Shown: positions 5,842-12,657 of the stretch, piece by piece
Numbering within the stretch: position 1 is the stretch's first letter
Layout of the letters: the number at the start of each line of letters is the position of its first letter
Assembly (NCBI RefSeq): GCF_039724765.1
Contig: NZ_CP155729.1
Span: 2,241,501 to 2,305,500 of the forward strand
Direction of reading: 5' to 3'
DNA length: 64,000 nt
Origin: Sagittula stellata E-37
Lineage (GTDB): Bacteria > Pseudomonadota > Alphaproteobacteria > Rhodobacterales > Rhodobacteraceae
Made by a program: the position numbers and the translations under genes
The notes under the pieces: generated by a model
The model's input: the letters and a program-made list of their open reading frames with translations, nothing else
The model's database searches: none
Told to the model about the DNA's origin: nothing

Positions 5842-6239
5842 GCCAGATCGAAGTGGAGATCGGGATCGGCGGACGCACCTTCGAGGTCGCCTGCCAGGAG
5901 GGCGAACAGCAGTTCCTGCTGTCCGCCGCGTCGCTTCTGGACGCGGAGGCGCAGGTGCTGGTGCAGCAGATCGGCCGTATCCCAGAGACGCGGATGCTGC
6001 TGATGGCCGGGCTGATGCTGGCCGACAAGACCGCGGGGCTGGAAGAGAAGCTGCGCGATGCCGAGGAGCAGTTGGGCGCGATGAAGGCGGAGATCGCCGA
6101 GCTGAAGGCGAAGCCCGCACCGGCGCCGGAGAAGGTCGAGGTGGCGGTGATCCCCTCGGACGTGACCGATGCGCTGGCGGAACTCGCGGCGCGGGCGGAA
6201 TCGCTGGCCGAGACGGCGGACGAGAAGCTGGGCGCCTGA
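5838..6239 (+). CDS. zapA: cell division protein ZapA
   Basis: ZapA binds FtsZ and cross-links its protofilaments at midcell. The 133-residue protein opens with the family's beta-hairpin region ([26 protein letters not shown], residues 3-25), continues with [16 protein letters not shown] and the [12 protein letters not shown] helix, and ends in a Glu/Lys/Ala-rich tail with the coiled-coil propensity typical of ZapA. It begins inside the stop of the upstream coiled-coil gene. Its last codons (ADEKLGA) are the first unit of a degenerate 26-base tandem repeat that runs on downstream. Confidence 0.9.
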
Positions 6240-6343
6240 CGGCAGACGAGATGCCGGGCGCCTGTCGGCAGGCGAGATGCCGGGCGCCTGACGGCAGACG
6301 AGAACCGGGCGCCTGAAGGCAGGGGAGAATCCGAGCGCCTGAA
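6215..6343 (+). repeat. degenerate 26-bp tandem repeat grown from the 3' end of zapA
   Basis: Five head-to-tail units at 6215, 6241, 6267, 6293 and 6318 share the pattern GGCRGRCGAGA..CCGGGCGCCTGA. The first is the end of zapA including its stop; the next four lie downstream and each carries a TGA-like or TGTC end. Units are 25-26 bases, so the reading frame drifts. The array probably arose by slippage duplication of the gene's terminus. From 6344 to 6444 I see no gene. Confidence 0.8.
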
Positions 6344-6444
6344 GGCGCAGGGGCGCGGTCTTTCCGGGTCGCGGTCGGCGCGTCGGTCAGGGCAGGTGGC
6401 CAACCCGGCTGCGCCGGAACGCCCACCCTACGGGATGCCGCGCC

Positions 6445-7140: not shown

Positions 7141-7271
7141 GCTGAAAGTCCTGTTTGAAAAATGTGTTGTCCGAAATGAAGTGGGGCGGCCTGGTTGGCG
7201 GCCGCCCCGTGATGTCTCGCACATGCCTCAGGCGCTGTCAGGGCCTCTGGCCCGCGCCGGTGCCCGGCGGT

Positions 7272-7643
7272 TCAGGCGTTGGCTTCGCGGATCTTGTCGG
7301 CGGCGTCCTTGTTGAAGGAGATGCCGTTCTGTTCGAAGAGGCCGTCGAGTTCGCCGGACAGCGTCATCTCGGTGATGATGTCGCAGCCGCCGACGAATTC
7401 GCCCTTCACGTAGAGTTGCGGGATGGTCGGCCAGTCCGAGTAGTCCTTGATGCCCTGGCGGATGGCGTCGTCGGCGAGGACGTTCACGTCTTCGAAGTCC
7501 ACGCCCATGTAGTTCAGCACCCCGGCCACGCGGGAGGAGAAGCCACACTGCGGCATCGCCTTGGTCCCCTTCATGTAGAGCACCACGTCGTGTGCATTCA
7601 CGGTGTCCGCGATACGGGTCTTTGCGTCGGTCGTTTCGGTCAT
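7272..7643 (-). CDS. grxD: monothiol glutaredoxin, CGFS type
   Basis: CGFS glutaredoxins bind a [2Fe-2S] cluster with glutathione and pass it on, often together with BolA proteins. The 123-residue product has [22 protein letters not shown] with the CGFS active-site motif, the [19 protein letters not shown] segment that binds glutathione, and the usual length. A GGAGACAG box precedes the ATG. The next gene upstream on the strand is a BolA-like gene, matching the partnership known for this family. Confidence 0.95.
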
Positions 7644-7724
7644 GTCTGTCTCCGTTGTCGGGGGGCGCGCGCCGGGCGGGCGCGCCGGGGGTGCATGGCC
7701 CGGCAGGGACGGGGCCGGGTCGGG

Positions 7725-7961
7725 TCAGTCGGGGGCCCGGGTGGTCAGGGCGAGGGCGTGCAGTTCGCCGGACGGGCCGTCCATCTTGCCCTTGAGCGCG
7801 GCGTAGACGGCGCGTTGTTGCTGGACGCGGTTCATGCCCCTGAAACTTTCGTCGACGACCATCGCGGACATGTGCACGCCGTCGTCCCCTTCGACGACGA
7901 TCTTGGCGTCCGGGAAGGATTGGCGCAGAAGGTCCTCGAGGTCCTGGGCATGGATTGGCAT
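7725..7961 (-). CDS. BolA/IbaG family protein
   Basis: A 78-residue protein of the BolA fold, which forms complexes with monothiol glutaredoxins that carry Fe-S clusters. It shows LEDLLRQSFPDAKIVVEGDDGVHMSAMVVDESF and the helix-turn motif RVQQQRAVYAAL; the histidine in GVHM and the late histidine in ELHALAL are candidate cluster ligands. Length is typical of the short IbaG-like subgroup. It sits directly upstream of grxD on the same strand (81 bases apart), probably in one transcript. Confidence 0.9.
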   Translation of the reverse strand: MPIHAQDLEDLLRQSFPDAKIVVEGDDGVHMSAMVVDESFRGMNRVQQQRAVYAALKGKMDGPSGELHALALTTRAPD

Positions 7962-8140: not shown

Positions 8141-8923
8141 TCAGGCGGCGAGGTCGCACCAGACGGGGACGTGGTCGGAGGGCTTTTCGGCGGCGCGGAC
8201 GTCCTTTTCGATCCAGCAGTCGTTGAGGAGGTCGGCGGCCTGCGGTGTCAGCAGCAGGTGGTCGATGCGGATGCCGTTGTTCCGTTGCCAGGAATTGGCC
8301 TGGTAGTCCCAGAAGGAGTAATGGCCCGGACCTTGCGTGCGGGCGCGGAAGGCTTCGGTGAACCCGAGGTTGACGATCCGGCGGAAGGCCTGCCGGGTCT
8401 GGGGGAGGAACAATGCGTCGTCGGTCCAGGCGTCGGGTTTCGCGGCGTCCTCGGCCTGCGGGATGACGTTGTAGTCGCCGGCCATGACCGCGGGCATCTC
8501 GGAGGCGAGGAGCTGTTCGGCGCGGGTGTGGAGGCGCTCCATCCAGGCGAGCTTGTAGTCGTATTTCGGGCCGGGGGCGGGGTTGCCGTTGGGCAGGTAG
8601 AGACCGCAGAGGCGCACGGCGGTGGTGTCGCCCATCACCGTCGCCTCGATCCAGCGGGCCTGTTCGTCGTCCGGGTCGCCGGGCAGGCCGCGCGAGACGT
8701 CTTCGAGCGGCAGTTTCGACAGGATGGCAACACCGTTGAAGCCTTTCTGTCCGTGGGTCTCGACGGCGTAACCCATATCCTCGAAATGCTCCCTGGGGAA
8801 ATTCTCGTCCACCGACTTGATTTCCTGCGCCAGGACAACGTCGGGGTTTGCAGACTGGAGCCAATCGGAAAGGGCGCCGATCCGCGCCTTGATGCCGTTG
8901 ATGTTGAACGTCGCGATTTTCAT
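8141..8923 (-). CDS. xth: exodeoxyribonuclease III
   Basis: Exonuclease III/AP endonuclease cleaves DNA at abasic sites and degrades 3' ends during base-excision repair. The 260-residue protein begins MKIATFNINGIKARIG, has the metal-binding glutamate in LAQEIKS, the catalytic GDYNVIP block, and the terminal SDHVPVWCDL with the Asp-His pair. GGGGGAT just upstream supports the ATG at 8923; the open frame further upstream has no homology. It is a single gene, upstream of and on the same strand as bolA-grxD but about 180 bases away. Confidence 0.95.
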   Translation of the reverse strand: MKIATFNINGIKARIGALSDWLQSANPDVVLAQEIKSVDENFPREHFEDMGYAVETHGQKGFNGVAILSKLPLEDVSRGLPGDPDDEQARWIEATVMGDTTAVRLCGLYLPNGNPAPGPKYDYKLAWMERLHTRAEQLLASEMPAVMAGDYNVIPQAEDAAKPDAWTDDALFLPQTRQAFRRIVNLGFTEAFRARTQGPGHYSFWDYQANSWQRNNGIRIDHLLLTPQAADLLNDCWIEKDVRAAEKPSDHVPVWCDLAA

Positions 8924-9013
8924 TCGATCCCCCGATTTTGGTTCAGGTGGATCGTGGATCGTGTCGGAGGTCAAGCGCGGGGGTTTGGCATGTTGGACAG
9001 GGGGTGACGCCAA

Positions 9014-9378
9014 ACAGTGCTAAGTGACGTCAGGCAACGTCATTTTTTGCATTTTTTGTGTCGAATCCCGAGGCGTTTGATCGCCTTTAGGTTGAGCGAA
9101 ACTCCGCCGCTCAACCGAAATTTTCAGTGACTCGAATCGCCTTTCCAGACTTTGCAACCCTGCAAAGTTGTGTTGCGTGGCTTCGATTCCACTTTTCCAC
9201 AAGTTTTATCGGTCTGGGGATAAGTCCTATTGTTTCGCATTCAGAGACAGATGTATCCACCGGTCCCTGTGGAAAAATAATTGATTAAACAACCTTAACA
9301 GGAATTAACTTTCTTGCAAACGCTTTTTGCGGGCAGCGTTAGGGGGTCAACAACGCACTTCCTCAACGGAGAACGACA
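9014..9378 (+). promoter_or_regulatory. structured regulatory region upstream of the repeat-protein operon
   Basis: A 365-base, AT-rich non-coding stretch. It holds a perfect stem GTTGAGCG / CGCTCAAC (9091-9115), a perfect operator-like palindrome ACTTTGCA-ACCC-TGCAAAGT (9149-9168), and two inverted DnaA-box-like sites TTTTCCACA (9193-9201) and TGTGGAAAA (9268-9276). The last 80 bases before the gene are rich in TTAA and could hold the promoter, but I cannot fix -35/-10 boxes with confidence. A small open frame on the minus strand (9020-9202) has no supporting signal. This is far more structure than at neighbouring genes. Confidence 0.5.
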
Positions 9379-10032
9379 ATGTCCGCACTCATCAAAACCA
9401 ATCTCTCTGAAGAAATCGTTTCCGGCAGCGAAACAAGCGCAATCGCCGGTGATTCGGTTGAAATGTTCACGTCCTGGTCCGGCCCGACCCGCGGCGACCT
9501 GCGTGACGGGTCCGCTGTCGAGATGTTCACCTCCTGGTCCGGCCCGGTGACCGGTTCCGCAGCCCAGGGCGGCAATGTCGAGGCGTTCACCTCCTGGTCC
9601 GGTCCGGCGGCAGGCGACAAGATTTCCGGCGACAGTGTCGAGGCGTTCACCTCGTGGTCCGGTCCGGCGGCAGGCGACAAGATCTCCGGCGACAATGTCG
9701 AAGCGTTCACCTCGTGGTCCGGCCCGGCGGCGGGCGACAAGATCTCCGGCGACAGTGTCGAGGCGTTCACCTCGTGGTCCGGTCCGGCGGCAGGCGACAA
9801 GATCTCCGGCGACAATGTCGAAGCGTTCACCTCGTGGTCCGGTCCGGCGGCGGGCGACAAGATCTCCGGCGACAGTGTCGAGGCGTTCACCTCGTGGTCC
9901 GGTCCGGCGGCAGGCGACAAGATCTCCGGCGACAATGTCGAAGCGTTCACCTCGTGGTCCGGTCCGGCGGCGGGCGAACGCGAAGCCGGCGATGCGGTCG
10001 AGGCCTTCACCAGCTGGTCGGTCAAGGCCTGA
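9379..10032 (+). CDS. tandem-repeat protein, ten VExFTSWSGP units (candidate multi-core precursor)
   Basis: A 217-residue protein: a 26-residue N-terminal region (MSALIKTNLSEEIVSGSETS then AIAGDS) followed by nine 20-residue repeats and a tenth truncated one ending FTSWSVKA. The invariant half is VE(M/A)FTSWSGP; the variable half is mostly AAGDKISGD(S/N). There is no Cys, no membrane segment and no classical signal peptide. The unit, rich in Ser, Thr, Trp, Glu and Asp and separated by Gly/Asp linkers, resembles multi-core precursors of ribosomally made modified peptides; a structural repeat protein is the main alternative. GGAG lies ahead of the ATG. A 352-residue unknown protein and an exporter follow on the same strand. 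I do not recognise a named family with certainty. Confidence 0.8.
   Translation: MSALIKTNLSEEIVSGSETSAIAGDSVEMFTSWSGPTRGDLRDGSAVEMFTSWSGPVTGSAAQGGNVEAFTSWSGPAAGDKISGDSVEAFTSWSGPAAGDKISGDNVEAFTSWSGPAAGDKISGDSVEAFTSWSGPAAGDKISGDNVEAFTSWSGPAAGDKISGDSVEAFTSWSGPAAGDKISGDNVEAFTSWSGPAAGEREAGDAVEAFTSWSVKA
9457..10029 (+). repeat. 60-bp in-frame tandem repeat with 120-bp higher-order period
   Basis: Nine complete 60-base units begin at 9457, 9517, 9577 and so on to 9937, with a partial tenth at 9997. Units 1, 2 and 9 are diverged; units 3-8 are nearly identical and strictly alternate between two versions that differ at linked sites (GACAGT..GAGGCG followed by GCAGGC, versus GACAAT..GAAGCG followed by GCGGGC). 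The middle is therefore three copies of a 120-base dimer, a mark of recent unequal exchange. Confidence 0.95.
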
Positions 10033-10105
10033 GCCTGACCGCGACTGACAACCTGCGAACCCGGGCGGGGCGTGACGCTCTGCCAATGACAGAGGAGAAG
10101 ACCAA

Positions 10106-11164
10106 ATGCCAAATGTCATCCAACTGACCGTCCCGTCCCGGATTGCGCCTCTGGAAGCGCGGATCACCGCGCTTCTGGGCTCCTTCGCCGATCATCGCCG
10201 TACCGGTGACGACGTGTTCTGGCTGAAGGAAAACGCCGAACTGCTGAATATCCTCGAATGCACCGGGCAGCCGGTCGCACCGGAGGCGCTGAGCGTGCAC
10301 GAAGCGTTCTATGCGCAGGCCGAAGACAGGCTGACATTCTTCCCACAGTACTACAGATTTCTACTCTCAATTGCATTGGATCTTGAGGATCTCGGCTTTT
10401 CGGGGAACTCTGGTCAGCGCATGGTTGAGTTTGCCGCGTCAGAGCGCCTCCCGGAGGCAGAATTGTCCGACCTCCAGAGGGCCGAGGCCCGGCGCCTGAT
10501 GATGCGCCGCGGGGTCGATCCGGTGCGGGACGCAGGGCTTGACGACAGGCTGCGCGCCTTCTGCGGACGGACCGCCACCTTTGCGCTGCCGAACAAGAAG
10601 GCGGCCTACGAGCTGACGCATATCGTCTACTATCTGTCCGAATACGGCCGCCGGGATCCCCGGCTCGGTGACGACGCCCTGATCAGTCTGCATTTTGCCG
10701 GGCTGACCGCCTTTCTGGACCAGAACGCCGACCTGCTTGCCGAGGTCTGCATCGCGCTGGTCTATGCCGGTCAGGAACCTCCGATCGCCTGGAGCGCCTG
10801 GCTGGAAGAGGAAACCGCCGCCTACACCGTCGACCACGGCGAGGGGCTGCCGCTGAACGACGATTACCACGAATTCCTGGTCTGCAACTGGCATCAGGCG
10901 GTGATCGGCGCGCCGGTGTTCCGCAAGCCGCTGGAGACCGAGCGGATGACCTATTCCAAGAACGGGCGCCGGTCGACCGCGCTGCGCGAGATCAGCCAGG
11001 CCATGCTGGGCATGGAGCGGCGGAGCGGTGACTGGGAGCGGATGCGCACCATGATCCTGCCGGCGCTGTCGGAAACCACGCTTGAGGTCCTGACCGTGGC
11101 CAGCGAAAGCTGCGCGCTTTTTCCCGACTACTTTGCGGGCTTCGCCCGGGCAGGTGCCGCATGA
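10106..11164 (+). CDS. uncharacterised, probably all-helical protein next to the repeat protein
   Basis: A 352-residue soluble protein with no family I can name surely. It looks wholly alpha-helical; the most striking stretch is YELTHIVYYLSEYG (about residues 168-181), followed by regularly spaced helices (LHFAGLTAFLDQNADLLAEV), a pattern seen in alpha/alpha-toroid or helical-repeat proteins, and a Cys-Asn-Trp-His cluster at 260-263. There is no ATP-grasp, radical-SAM, YcaO, lanthionine-synthase or protease signature. It starts 73 bases after the repeat gene behind GAGGAGAAG and overlaps the following exporter gene by four bases. Context suggests it binds or processes the repeat protein; that is inference. 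Confidence 0.75.
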   Translation: MPNVIQLTVPSRIAPLEARITALLGSFADHRRTGDDVFWLKENAELLNILECTGQPVAPEALSVHEAFYAQAEDRLTFFPQYYRFLLSIALDLEDLGFSGNSGQRMVEFAASERLPEAELSDLQRAEARRLMMRRGVDPVRDAGLDDRLRAFCGRTATFALPNKKAAYELTHIVYYLSEYGRRDPRLGDDALISLHFAGLTAFLDQNADLLAEVCIALVYAGQEPPIAWSAWLEEETAAYTVDHGEGLPLNDDYHEFLVCNWHQAVIGAPVFRKPLETERMTYSKNGRRSTALREISQAMLGMERRSGDWERMRTMILPALSETTLEVLTVASESCALFPDYFAGFARAGAA

Positions 11165-12084
11165 ACCGGATGTCGAAGATGTGGATGGCGCTGGGTGGCG
11201 CCGGTGTGGGGGCGCTGCTGGTGGTGGTCTACACCGGCATGATGGCGGCGGCCGACGGGATCACCAAGTTCATCGCCGGGTCCTACGCCGCGCCGCAACT
11301 TTTCGTGCTGTCGTCGTTCCTGGTGGTGGCCTTTTCGGTCGGGGGCGCGCGCATCGGCGGACAGGGTGTCGTCGCGGGGCTGCGCGTGCGGTCGCGCGCG
11401 GCGATGCTGATCCGCGCGGTTCTGACGGTGGTCGCCTCGGTCGCGTTCTTCATGGCGTTCCGTCATCTGCCCTTTGCCGACGTCTTCCTGTTCATCGGTC
11501 TGATCCCGCTGATCGCGGCGGTGCTGTCCGGCCCGATCCTGGGCGAGACGCCGCGTCCGCTGGCCTGGGCGGCGCTGAGCGTCGGTGCCTGCGGCGTGCT
11601 GTTCCTGATGCCGGGCGGCGTGTCCGGGATGCAGGCGGGCCATGCCTGGGCGCTGCTGGCCGCCGTCTCCGGCACCGGCTCCATGCTGGCCGCACGGGTG
11701 ATCGCCAAGGTCGAACGCGCGCCGCTGGCGCAGGTGTTCTGGCCGAACCTTGCCCTGATGGTGTCCATGGCGGTGGCGCTGCCTTTCGTCTGGCAGCCGA
11801 TGGGTCTGAACGATTTCATCTGGGTCGCGGCCTATGCCGGCGCGCTGTTCGGAGCACGCTACGTCGTGGCCGAGGCGCTGCGCCTGCTGCCGGCCTATGT
11901 CGCCACGCCGCTGATGAACCTGCAGTTCGTCTGGATGGTGGTCATCGGATTTGTCGGCTTCGGAGAAGTGCCGACGGCGGCGACGGTGCTGGGTGTCATG
12001 CTGGTTGTGGGCTCTGGCGCCTGGCTGGTGCTGGAAGAGCATATCGGACGGGCCCGGGCCGCGCGGATTGTTCCGGCGGAGTAA
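11161..12084 (+). CDS. EamA/DMT-superfamily transporter
   Basis: A 307-residue inner-membrane protein with ten hydrophobic segments in two five-helix halves, the architecture of EamA drug/metabolite transporters that export small molecules. The first half contains ADGITKFIAGSYAAPQLFVL and the second MAVALPFVWQPMGLNDFIW. Its start ATG overlaps the stop of the 352-residue gene (ATGA), so the two are coupled. It could export a product of the upstream repeat locus, or be an unrelated permease. A strong bidirectional terminator closes the operon at 12271-12304. Confidence 0.85.
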   Translation: MNRMSKMWMALGGAGVGALLVVVYTGMMAAADGITKFIAGSYAAPQLFVLSSFLVVAFSVGGARIGGQGVVAGLRVRSRAAMLIRAVLTVVASVAFFMAFRHLPFADVFLFIGLIPLIAAVLSGPILGETPRPLAWAALSVGACGVLFLMPGGVSGMQAGHAWALLAAVSGTGSMLAARVIAKVERAPLAQVFWPNLALMVSMAVALPFVWQPMGLNDFIWVAAYAGALFGARYVVAEALRLLPAYVATPLMNLQFVWMVVIGFVGFGEVPTAATVLGVMLVVGSGAWLVLEEHIGRARAARIVPAE

Positions 12085-12093
12085 GGCCTGAGG

Positions 12094-12190
12094 GGTGGCG
12101 GCTGCGCCGCCGATAGGGTGAGACAAGCGGGTCGGCGGCTGCGCCGCCGACAGGGTGAAACATGCGGGTCGGCGGCTGGGCCGCCGACAG
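12094..12190. repeat. three REP-like palindromic units
   Basis: Three consecutive units of 36-37 bases, starting near 12095, 12131 and 12168, each centre on the palindrome GTCGGCGGCTGCGCCGCCGAC (here trimmed variants occur) followed by AGGGTGA and a spacer ending CGG. The third unit has GGG in place of GCG in its loop. They resemble clustered repetitive extragenic palindromes and lie just after the EamA gene. Confidence 0.75.
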
Positions 12191-12220
12191 GCCGGGGCGG
12201 GCGCTGCCCTCCCCGGACCC

Positions 12221-12270: not shown

Positions 12271-12304
12271 ACGACAAAAGGGGCCGGTCGGCCCCTTTTG
12301 TCGT
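12271..12304. terminator. bidirectional rho-independent terminator
   Basis: A perfect 15-base inverted repeat (ACGACAAAAGGGGCC / its complement) with a GGTC loop. A run of A on the left arm and T on the right makes it work in both directions, closing the EamA operon (+) and the A-type carrier gene (-), whose stops face each other. Confidence 0.9.
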
Positions 12305-12333: not shown

Positions 12334-12657
12334 TCAGATCGAGAAGGACGTGCCGCAGCCGCAGGAACTGGTGGCGTTCGGGTTGTCGATGGTGAAGCGC
12401 GCGCCGATGAGTTCGTCGGTGAAGTCGATCGTGGCGCCGGACAGGAAGGGCAGGGAGACCGGATCGACCACCACCTTTTCCGGGCCTTCGGCGATCACGA
12501 GGTCGTCCGTGGCGGGCGCGTCGAGGCTGATGTCGTACTGGAAGCCGGAACAGCCGCCGCCCTCGACCGCCACGCGCAGGGCCTTGCCCTGGTCGGCGGC
12601 ACCGATTTCGGACAAGCGTTCGAAGGCGCGTTCTGTGACTTTCGGCGGGAGCTGCAT
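12334..12657 (-). CDS. A-type iron-sulfur carrier protein (IscA/ErpA/HesB)
   Basis: A 107-residue Fe-S carrier that receives clusters from a scaffold and hands them to apoproteins. The three conserved cysteines are in GGGCSGFQYD and the terminal SSCGCGTSFSI. Length is typical. Start ATG at 12657 gives MQLPPKVTERAFERL, matching the family N-terminus; upstream in-frame sequence has no homology. Whether it is IscA or ErpA cannot be decided here. It is a single gene facing the EamA operon and divergent from dgt. Confidence 0.9.
   Translation of the reverse strand: MQLPPKVTERAFERLSEIGAADQGKALRVAVEGGGCSGFQYDISLDAPATDDLVIAEGPEKVVVDPVSLPFLSGATIDFTDELIGARFTIDNPNATSSCGCGTSFSI

Follow-up and report, generated by a model that had tools for sequence, protein, structure and literature searches.

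A tetrapeptide-repeat gene and a DUF6902 gene form a linked, probably RiPP-producing pair in Rhodobacteraceae

Background

What does a bacterial gene encoding ten near-identical short repeats produce, and which of its neighbours belong to the same system? This question is raised by positions 9379 to 12084 of a 64,000-nucleotide stretch of the Sagittula stellata E-37 genome (contig NZ_CP155729.1, positions 2,241,501 to 2,305,500 of the forward strand), the whole of which is referred to herein as the window. A first-pass annotation of this DNA proposed three open reading frames (ORFs), encoding a 217-residue repeat protein, a 352-residue protein and an EamA-family exporter, and suggested that they might make a ribosomally synthesized and post-translationally modified peptide (RiPP). 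The layout was borne out, with all three ORFs on the plus strand and a hairpin behind eamA at 12271-12304, and the RiPP idea is largely supported. We show herein that the repeat gene and its immediate neighbour form a real, widespread and tightly linked system, which very probably consists of a RiPP-like precursor and its enzyme.

Results

The repeat gene accompanies DUF6902

The second ORF (10106-11164, plus strand), which had been left unrecognised, matches the Pfam family DUF6902 (PF21843) at 523.7 bits against a curated cut-off of 27. It also passes the cut-off of DUF6895 (PF21836; 74.8 against 23.8 bits), over residues 29-232 only, and no other enzyme family was recognised in it by Pfam or NCBIfam. 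DUF6902 was present in 82 of 295 genomes sampled from the family of the window, Rhodobacteraceae, as a single copy in each save G200, which has two partial pieces. A precursor profile, comprising the leader and three repeat units, was built from 22 precursors and applied to the same genomes. When the two genome lists were compared by eye, the profile matched 75 of the 82 DUF6902-positive genomes versus none of the 213 DUF6902-negative ones, at least five of the 75 (G000, G008, G012, G090 and G192) having contributed to the profile itself. Four of the seven unmatched genomes (G060, G282, G301 and G311) have a short repeat ORF visible by eye, with the cores IAGL, MSCS, SPSC and SSTC, respectively; the DUF6902 gene of G158 is a fragment cut off by the end of its contig, and no precursor adjoins the gene in G058 or G306. 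Three genomes (G046, G072 and G269) gave precursor-profile matches on two contigs each, either because the assembly breaks within the repeat or because another precursor gene is present.

A precursor was likewise found at DUF6902 in 112 of 114 non-redundant loci, a fetched subset made up of the best 80 of 337 relatives and further loci from the genome profile searches. Such recurrence shows that the gene arrangement is not due to chance. The counts support the earlier notion of a precursor and a processing enzyme acting as a unit, and the co-occurrence check proposed with it was strongly positive. Protein searches with the whole repeat protein gave no scored relatives; since the relatives came only via the neighbouring enzyme, the absence of sequence matches is misleading. 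Seven further precursors gave Pfam matches (herpes UL35, HYPK UBA and similar), which were taken as artefacts of repeat composition.

The third ORF (11161-12084, plus strand) encodes a 307-residue EamA-family transporter (Pfam EamA, 43.8 bits), and its start lies inside the DUF6902 stop, in an ATGA at 11161-11164 that gives a 4-nucleotide overlap. Contrary to the annotation, this gene is not a fixed third member. Among the 112 non-redundant loci for which 800 base pairs (bp) or more of downstream sequence were available, it follows DUF6902 in 86 and is absent from the other 26, in which erpA, where found, mostly lies within 90 bp of DUF6902; at least eight changes in its presence are required on the enzyme tree. 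The pair is therefore the constant unit, and the exporter is an optional partner.

A constant tetrapeptide within each precursor

The precursor ORF (9379-10032, plus strand) is indicated by the ORF call, by tandem-repeat detection and by homologous precursors at the same place in the 112 loci. It begins with a leader region of about 23 residues (MSALIKTNLSEEIVSGSETSAIA, 9379-9447), of which M1 and K6, together with G24 of the first unit, are invariant across 22 aligned precursors. Ten F-TSWS units follow, each of 20 residues with the pattern G-x-x-V-E-[MA]-F-TSWS, at an exact spacing of 60 nucleotides, from the first core at 9469-9480 (ACG TCC TGG TCC) to the tenth at 10009-10020 (ACC AGC TGG TCG); Tandem Repeats Finder reported a 60-bp array at 9568-9977, with 6.8 copies and 94% matches. 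The ten repeats had been described as VExFTSWSGP. Their number stands, but GP follows only nine of the cores, and the tenth reads TSWSVKA, at which the protein ends. The protein end falls exactly behind a core in 69 of 109 precursors.

When units from all genomes were aligned on the Phe residue (position 0, F in 94%), G was found at -6 in 97% and P at +6 in 87%. The residues at +1 to +4 were identical to the precursor's own modal tetrapeptide in 830 of 838 units, and this tetrapeptide differs between genomes. In 98 precursors with at least four units, 37-53% of unit pairs differed synonymously and 0.0-0.8% non-synonymously at the core codons, whereas non-synonymous differences amounted to 34-45% at positions -5 to -1. 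Recent copying of units fails to explain the constant core, because core codons often differ synonymously. Units for this first comparison (106 precursors) had been chosen by likeness to the modal core, with at most two of five residues different, and for that reason it was repeated on 625 units from 78 precursors, with G at -6 and P at +6 as the sole criteria of choice. The modal tetrapeptide then occurred in 614 of the 625 units; core codons showed 1.8-2.9% non-synonymous and 30-49% synonymous differences, and the flanks 28-39% non-synonymous differences. The contrast between core and flank thus persists under this choice. Three of the 109 script-called precursors had a mis-set modal string: L078 is interrupted by runs of N, and L085 and L127 are phased differently. 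These are true precursor ORFs that stand outside the 106, and their tetrapeptides were set by hand, as were those of two precursors identified by eye (L130 and L133); the precursor of L021, which holds an N run, was read from the identical locus L114.

The repeat protein might instead act whole, binding or assembling, with DUF6902 as its chaperone, modifier or partner and nothing released. Such a role would suit a locus with no peptidase and a unit number that varies from 2 to 20 (median 8), as widely as in many repeat proteins. However, only the tetrapeptide, one Gly and one Phe are kept in each unit while the remainder drifts, precursors with just two units occur (MSCS, MCCS and IAGL), and the tetrapeptide turns over between relatives with enzymes 82-96% identical. 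We consider a whole-protein function improbable. The pattern of a constant tetrapeptide in drifting flanks with a kept G and F, behind a leader with M1 and K6 kept, would fit a leader or recognition sequence that is separate from the core.

Besides Gly and Trp, the core residues are mostly Ser and Thr, with some Cys, and most cores contain no Cys. The first-pass annotation had speculated on ester or amide cross-links between Ser/Thr and Glu/Asp in each unit. The Glu position falls within the variable flank, where units differ from one another non-synonymously at a rate of 45%. None of the 31 modal tetrapeptides contains an acidic residue, and cross-linking was set aside because the acid is outside the constant part of the unit. 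Two different cores were seen at a few loci: L024 (FCSWS and FSSLS), L119 (TTSC and TTGL) and L128, in which two precursor-like ORFs at 2227-2884, one with TSGS and the other with GSSC, lie ahead of a single DUF6902 gene.

Turnover of the tetrapeptide between genomes

The 31 modal tetrapeptides are distributed over 111 loci, and at least 48 changes are needed to place them on the enzyme tree, a quick tree. The 13 Marivita records listed have the cores TSGS, TSGL, TCGL, MSAS, TSAS and TTSC. SSGS and TSGS are found with enzymes that are 95.5% identical, and TSGS and TTSC with enzymes that are 86.6% identical. Cores from other genera include TSGA in Salipiger and TSGL in Shimia. Four residues that are fixed in up to twenty copies per genome, yet have changed at least 48 times, behave as a specific signal, or a tag used in recognition, would be expected to. 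We propose only tentatively that the product is a strain-specific signal.

Residues lost together with the precursor

Conserved residues of the DUF6902 protein include H172, H255, D209, E213, E42 and D122, and H172, D209 and E213 have counterparts in DUF6895. Among 114 non-redundant enzymes, H172, D209, N163, E45, Y82 and Y176 are invariant in all but L124 and L139. These are the sole two loci without a precursor, and their genomes (G058 and G306) gave no precursor match elsewhere. E213 and H255 are lost in L124 and kept in L139, and R31, W39, E42, Y83, E119, D122, R148 and D252 are kept in both. At the level of sequence, this exact match between residue loss and precursor loss resembles a natural knock-out and ties H172, D209, N163, E45, Y82 and Y176 to the precursor.

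The predicted structure of the 352-residue protein alone, a check that the annotation had proposed, is almost all helix (predicted local distance difference test score, 94.1) and alpha/alpha-toroid-like. Foldseek found nothing under an E-value of 0.001 in the PDB, a viral structure library likewise gave nothing under that value, and no solved structure was found by the DUF6902 sequence. For that reason the toroid reading relies on the DUF6895 model and on a second structure comparison, in which class II terpene cyclases and protein prenyltransferase beta subunits matched best. The models resemble alpha/alpha toroids, clearly so for DUF6895 and less so for DUF6902. Pfam gave no RiPP-recognition domain on DUF6902, although one may still be present.

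A toroid fold bears on the question of which reaction the enzyme would catalyse. It also hosts cyclases, prenyltransferases and hydrolases, in keeping with the matches above, and Ser and Thr prevail in the cores; the locus could be a RiPP system in which DUF6902 carries out cyclisation, dehydration, group transfer or core-directed proteolysis, for example. On the other hand, the profile libraries recognise no other enzyme family in the protein, and its family link points to DUF6895. Prenylation was set aside because most cores have no Cys, and lanthionine-type chemistry is, for the same reason, unlikely to be general. A reaction of this other kind seems to us rather unlikely.

Discussion

Proposed role of DUF6902

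A member of DUF6895 is a lasso-peptide epimerase, according to a title (Shi et al., ACS Catal. 2026, 16, 1757) cited in the reference list of PMC13352647. DUF6902 shares with that family a significant sequence relation, an all-helical model, a small upstream ORF (at five DUF6895 loci) and His/Asp/Glu motifs, which are not known to be the catalytic residues of the published epimerase. It differs in being a separate Pfam family and in having precursors with up to 20 tetrapeptide cores. The annotation's suggestion of a new type of RiPP enzyme holds in that DUF6902 is a Pfam family of unknown function, and gives way in that a relative has, by that title, been reported as an epimerase. Whether the chemistry of DUF6902 is epimerisation we judge to be evenly balanced.

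We consider it probable that the locus is a multicore RiPP system in which each copy of the tetrapeptide is modified by DUF6902, most likely by epimerisation, released by peptidases and exported by EamA. DUF6902 would be guided to the TSWS core of the 217-residue precursor by the leader and by a motif for recognition in each unit, G-[DE]-x-[VT]-x-[MA]-F, and every core copy would be modified. The most likely chemistry would be epimerisation of a core residue through His/acid proton transfer, with H172 acting together with D209 or E213 and H255 possibly taking part. Release of the tetrapeptide would fall to housekeeping peptidases, and its export to EamA at the loci that have one. Two observations temper the evidence for this account: close relatives more often share a core, as do 45 of the 65 pairs whose enzymes have 80% identity or more, which descent alone would predict, and the precursor-less loci number only two, with the L124 enzyme divergent throughout. 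A bolder version, which we regard as doubtful, is that about one-quarter of the sampled family genomes carry a new RiPP class, with a lineage-specific, probably D-residue tetrapeptide serving as a recognition signal, like mating or quorum pherotypes, and with DUF6902 as a new toroid-fold epimerase. A Pfam family of unknown function hereby gains a testable substrate with more than 100 natural variants, and since every genome spells out the sequence of its own product, the product can be searched for directly (for TSWS, a calculated [M+H]+ of 480.21).

Comparison with known systems

A lasso peptide cluster is defined by genes for a leader peptidase and an Asn-synthetase-like cyclase. Unlike such systems, the three-gene locus contains neither, and none was found among the five flanking genes between 7272 and 14080 (Glutaredoxin, BolA, Exo_endo_phos, Fe-S_biosyn and HD/HD_assoc proteins by Pfam), the rest of the genome not having been searched. 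MslH (PMC10406935), the peptide epimerase of the lasso peptide MS-271, resembles DUF6902 in the reaction proposed, in which acid-base pairs of His and Asp epimerise a C-alpha of a peptide made on the ribosome. It is, however, a metalloenzyme of the calcineurin-like type whose target is a single C-terminal Trp, whereas the DUF6902 model is almost all helix. In fungi, the Kex2-processed repeat proteins of the ustiloxin type and the alpha-factor precursors of yeast (PMC7329392) are like the window precursor in that short cores recur many times and vary from species to species; the Kex2-processed proteins differ in their signal peptide, in Kex2 cleavage and in a DUF3328 rather than a DUF6902 enzyme, the DUF3328 gene being near 22% of their genes. 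The multicore microviridin pair AMdnA/AMdnC is similar in that a single bacterial enzyme serves several cores in one precursor, and dissimilar in its ATP-grasp ligase, three cores and macrolactones (PMC5934393). No ATP-grasp profile, as in a graspetide system, was found in any of the three locus proteins by Pfam or NCBIfam. In the one library searched, DUF6902 was mentioned in no paper and DUF6895 in one, through the epimerase title above; among the matches listed for repeat or multicore RiPPs, including in Rhodobacterales, and for tetrapeptide pheromones in Roseobacter, none concerned this system.

Small ORFs upstream of DUF6895 genes

A small ORF lies just upstream of the DUF6895 gene in five of five loci that score over the cut-off and fall outside DUF6902; these are all that were fetched with wide flanks, and two below-cut-off matches (G387 and G398) were left out. 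L140 has a pair of paralogous peptides, 66 and 65 residues long (7251-7850), ahead of an enzyme identical to a Rhizobium sp. CF122 protein, and L141 has a 143-residue ORF (8907-9338) with GAELAGPWYIYKE and GGELVGPWFVLKEG. The upstream ORFs of L155, L156 and L157 encode 128, 136 and 80 residues, that of L156 carrying EVAGYVFVWDKYVY and EVAGYIYTEDKYTF. No Pfam family was found in the two tested. Their presence would fit a superfamily acting on ribosomal peptides, and these ORFs are possible candidate precursors of another RiPP group. W/Y-rich motifs, sometimes repeated, were observed in them. The L157 enzyme reads in two pieces, and in L155 (2539-5250) the DUF6895 domain is part of a protein of 903 residues that ends in an APH phosphotransferase domain (78 bits).

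Genomic setting

The system lies between two conserved genes that are not part of it, an xthA-type gene on the left (Exo_endo_phos, 8141-8923, minus strand) and a convergent erpA-type gene on the right (Fe-S_biosyn, 12334-12657, minus strand). Counted over 136 loci, redundant ones included, xthA lies no more than 2 kb upstream in 88 of the 89 loci whose upstream sequence reaches 2.5 kb, and erpA no more than 3 kb downstream in 80 of the 93 whose downstream sequence reaches that length. The two genes adjoin, 92 and 89 bp apart, in two same-genus genomes without DUF6902, and this junction is the empty site. DUF6902 had no match in plasmid and phage collections, and defence-system profiles gave only one weak match, on the repeat protein (E-value, 0.03). 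One record (L018) titled Enemella evansiae, which we take to be an actinobacterial name, also has the locus, with a protein identical to that of G005, a genome from the family of the window, and is probably mislabelled.

Shine-Dalgarno-like sequences are found ahead of both the repeat ORF (GGAGA, starting at 9368) and the DUF6902 ORF (AGAGGAGAAG, starting at 10091). Farther upstream, TTAACAGGAATTAAC at 9295-9309 is a TTAA-N6/7-TTAA-type site, which looks similar to a CtrA site. Such sites occur in 23 of 101 upstream stretches against a shuffle mean of 1.1, the shuffles preserving single bases only and the matches being mostly from closely related loci and not independent. A GCAAGCGT-like stretch ahead of the precursor start (9331-9351 in the window) was seen in 26 of the 101 against a shuffle mean of 0.5. 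The terminator-like hairpin that separates eamA from the erpA-type gene is a perfect 15-bp inverted repeat (12271-12285 and 12290-12304), and a GC-rich 37-bp tandem repeat of 2.7 copies (12093-12191) lies between it and eamA. Another tandem repeat, of 26 bp in 5.2 copies, is located at 6212-6346.
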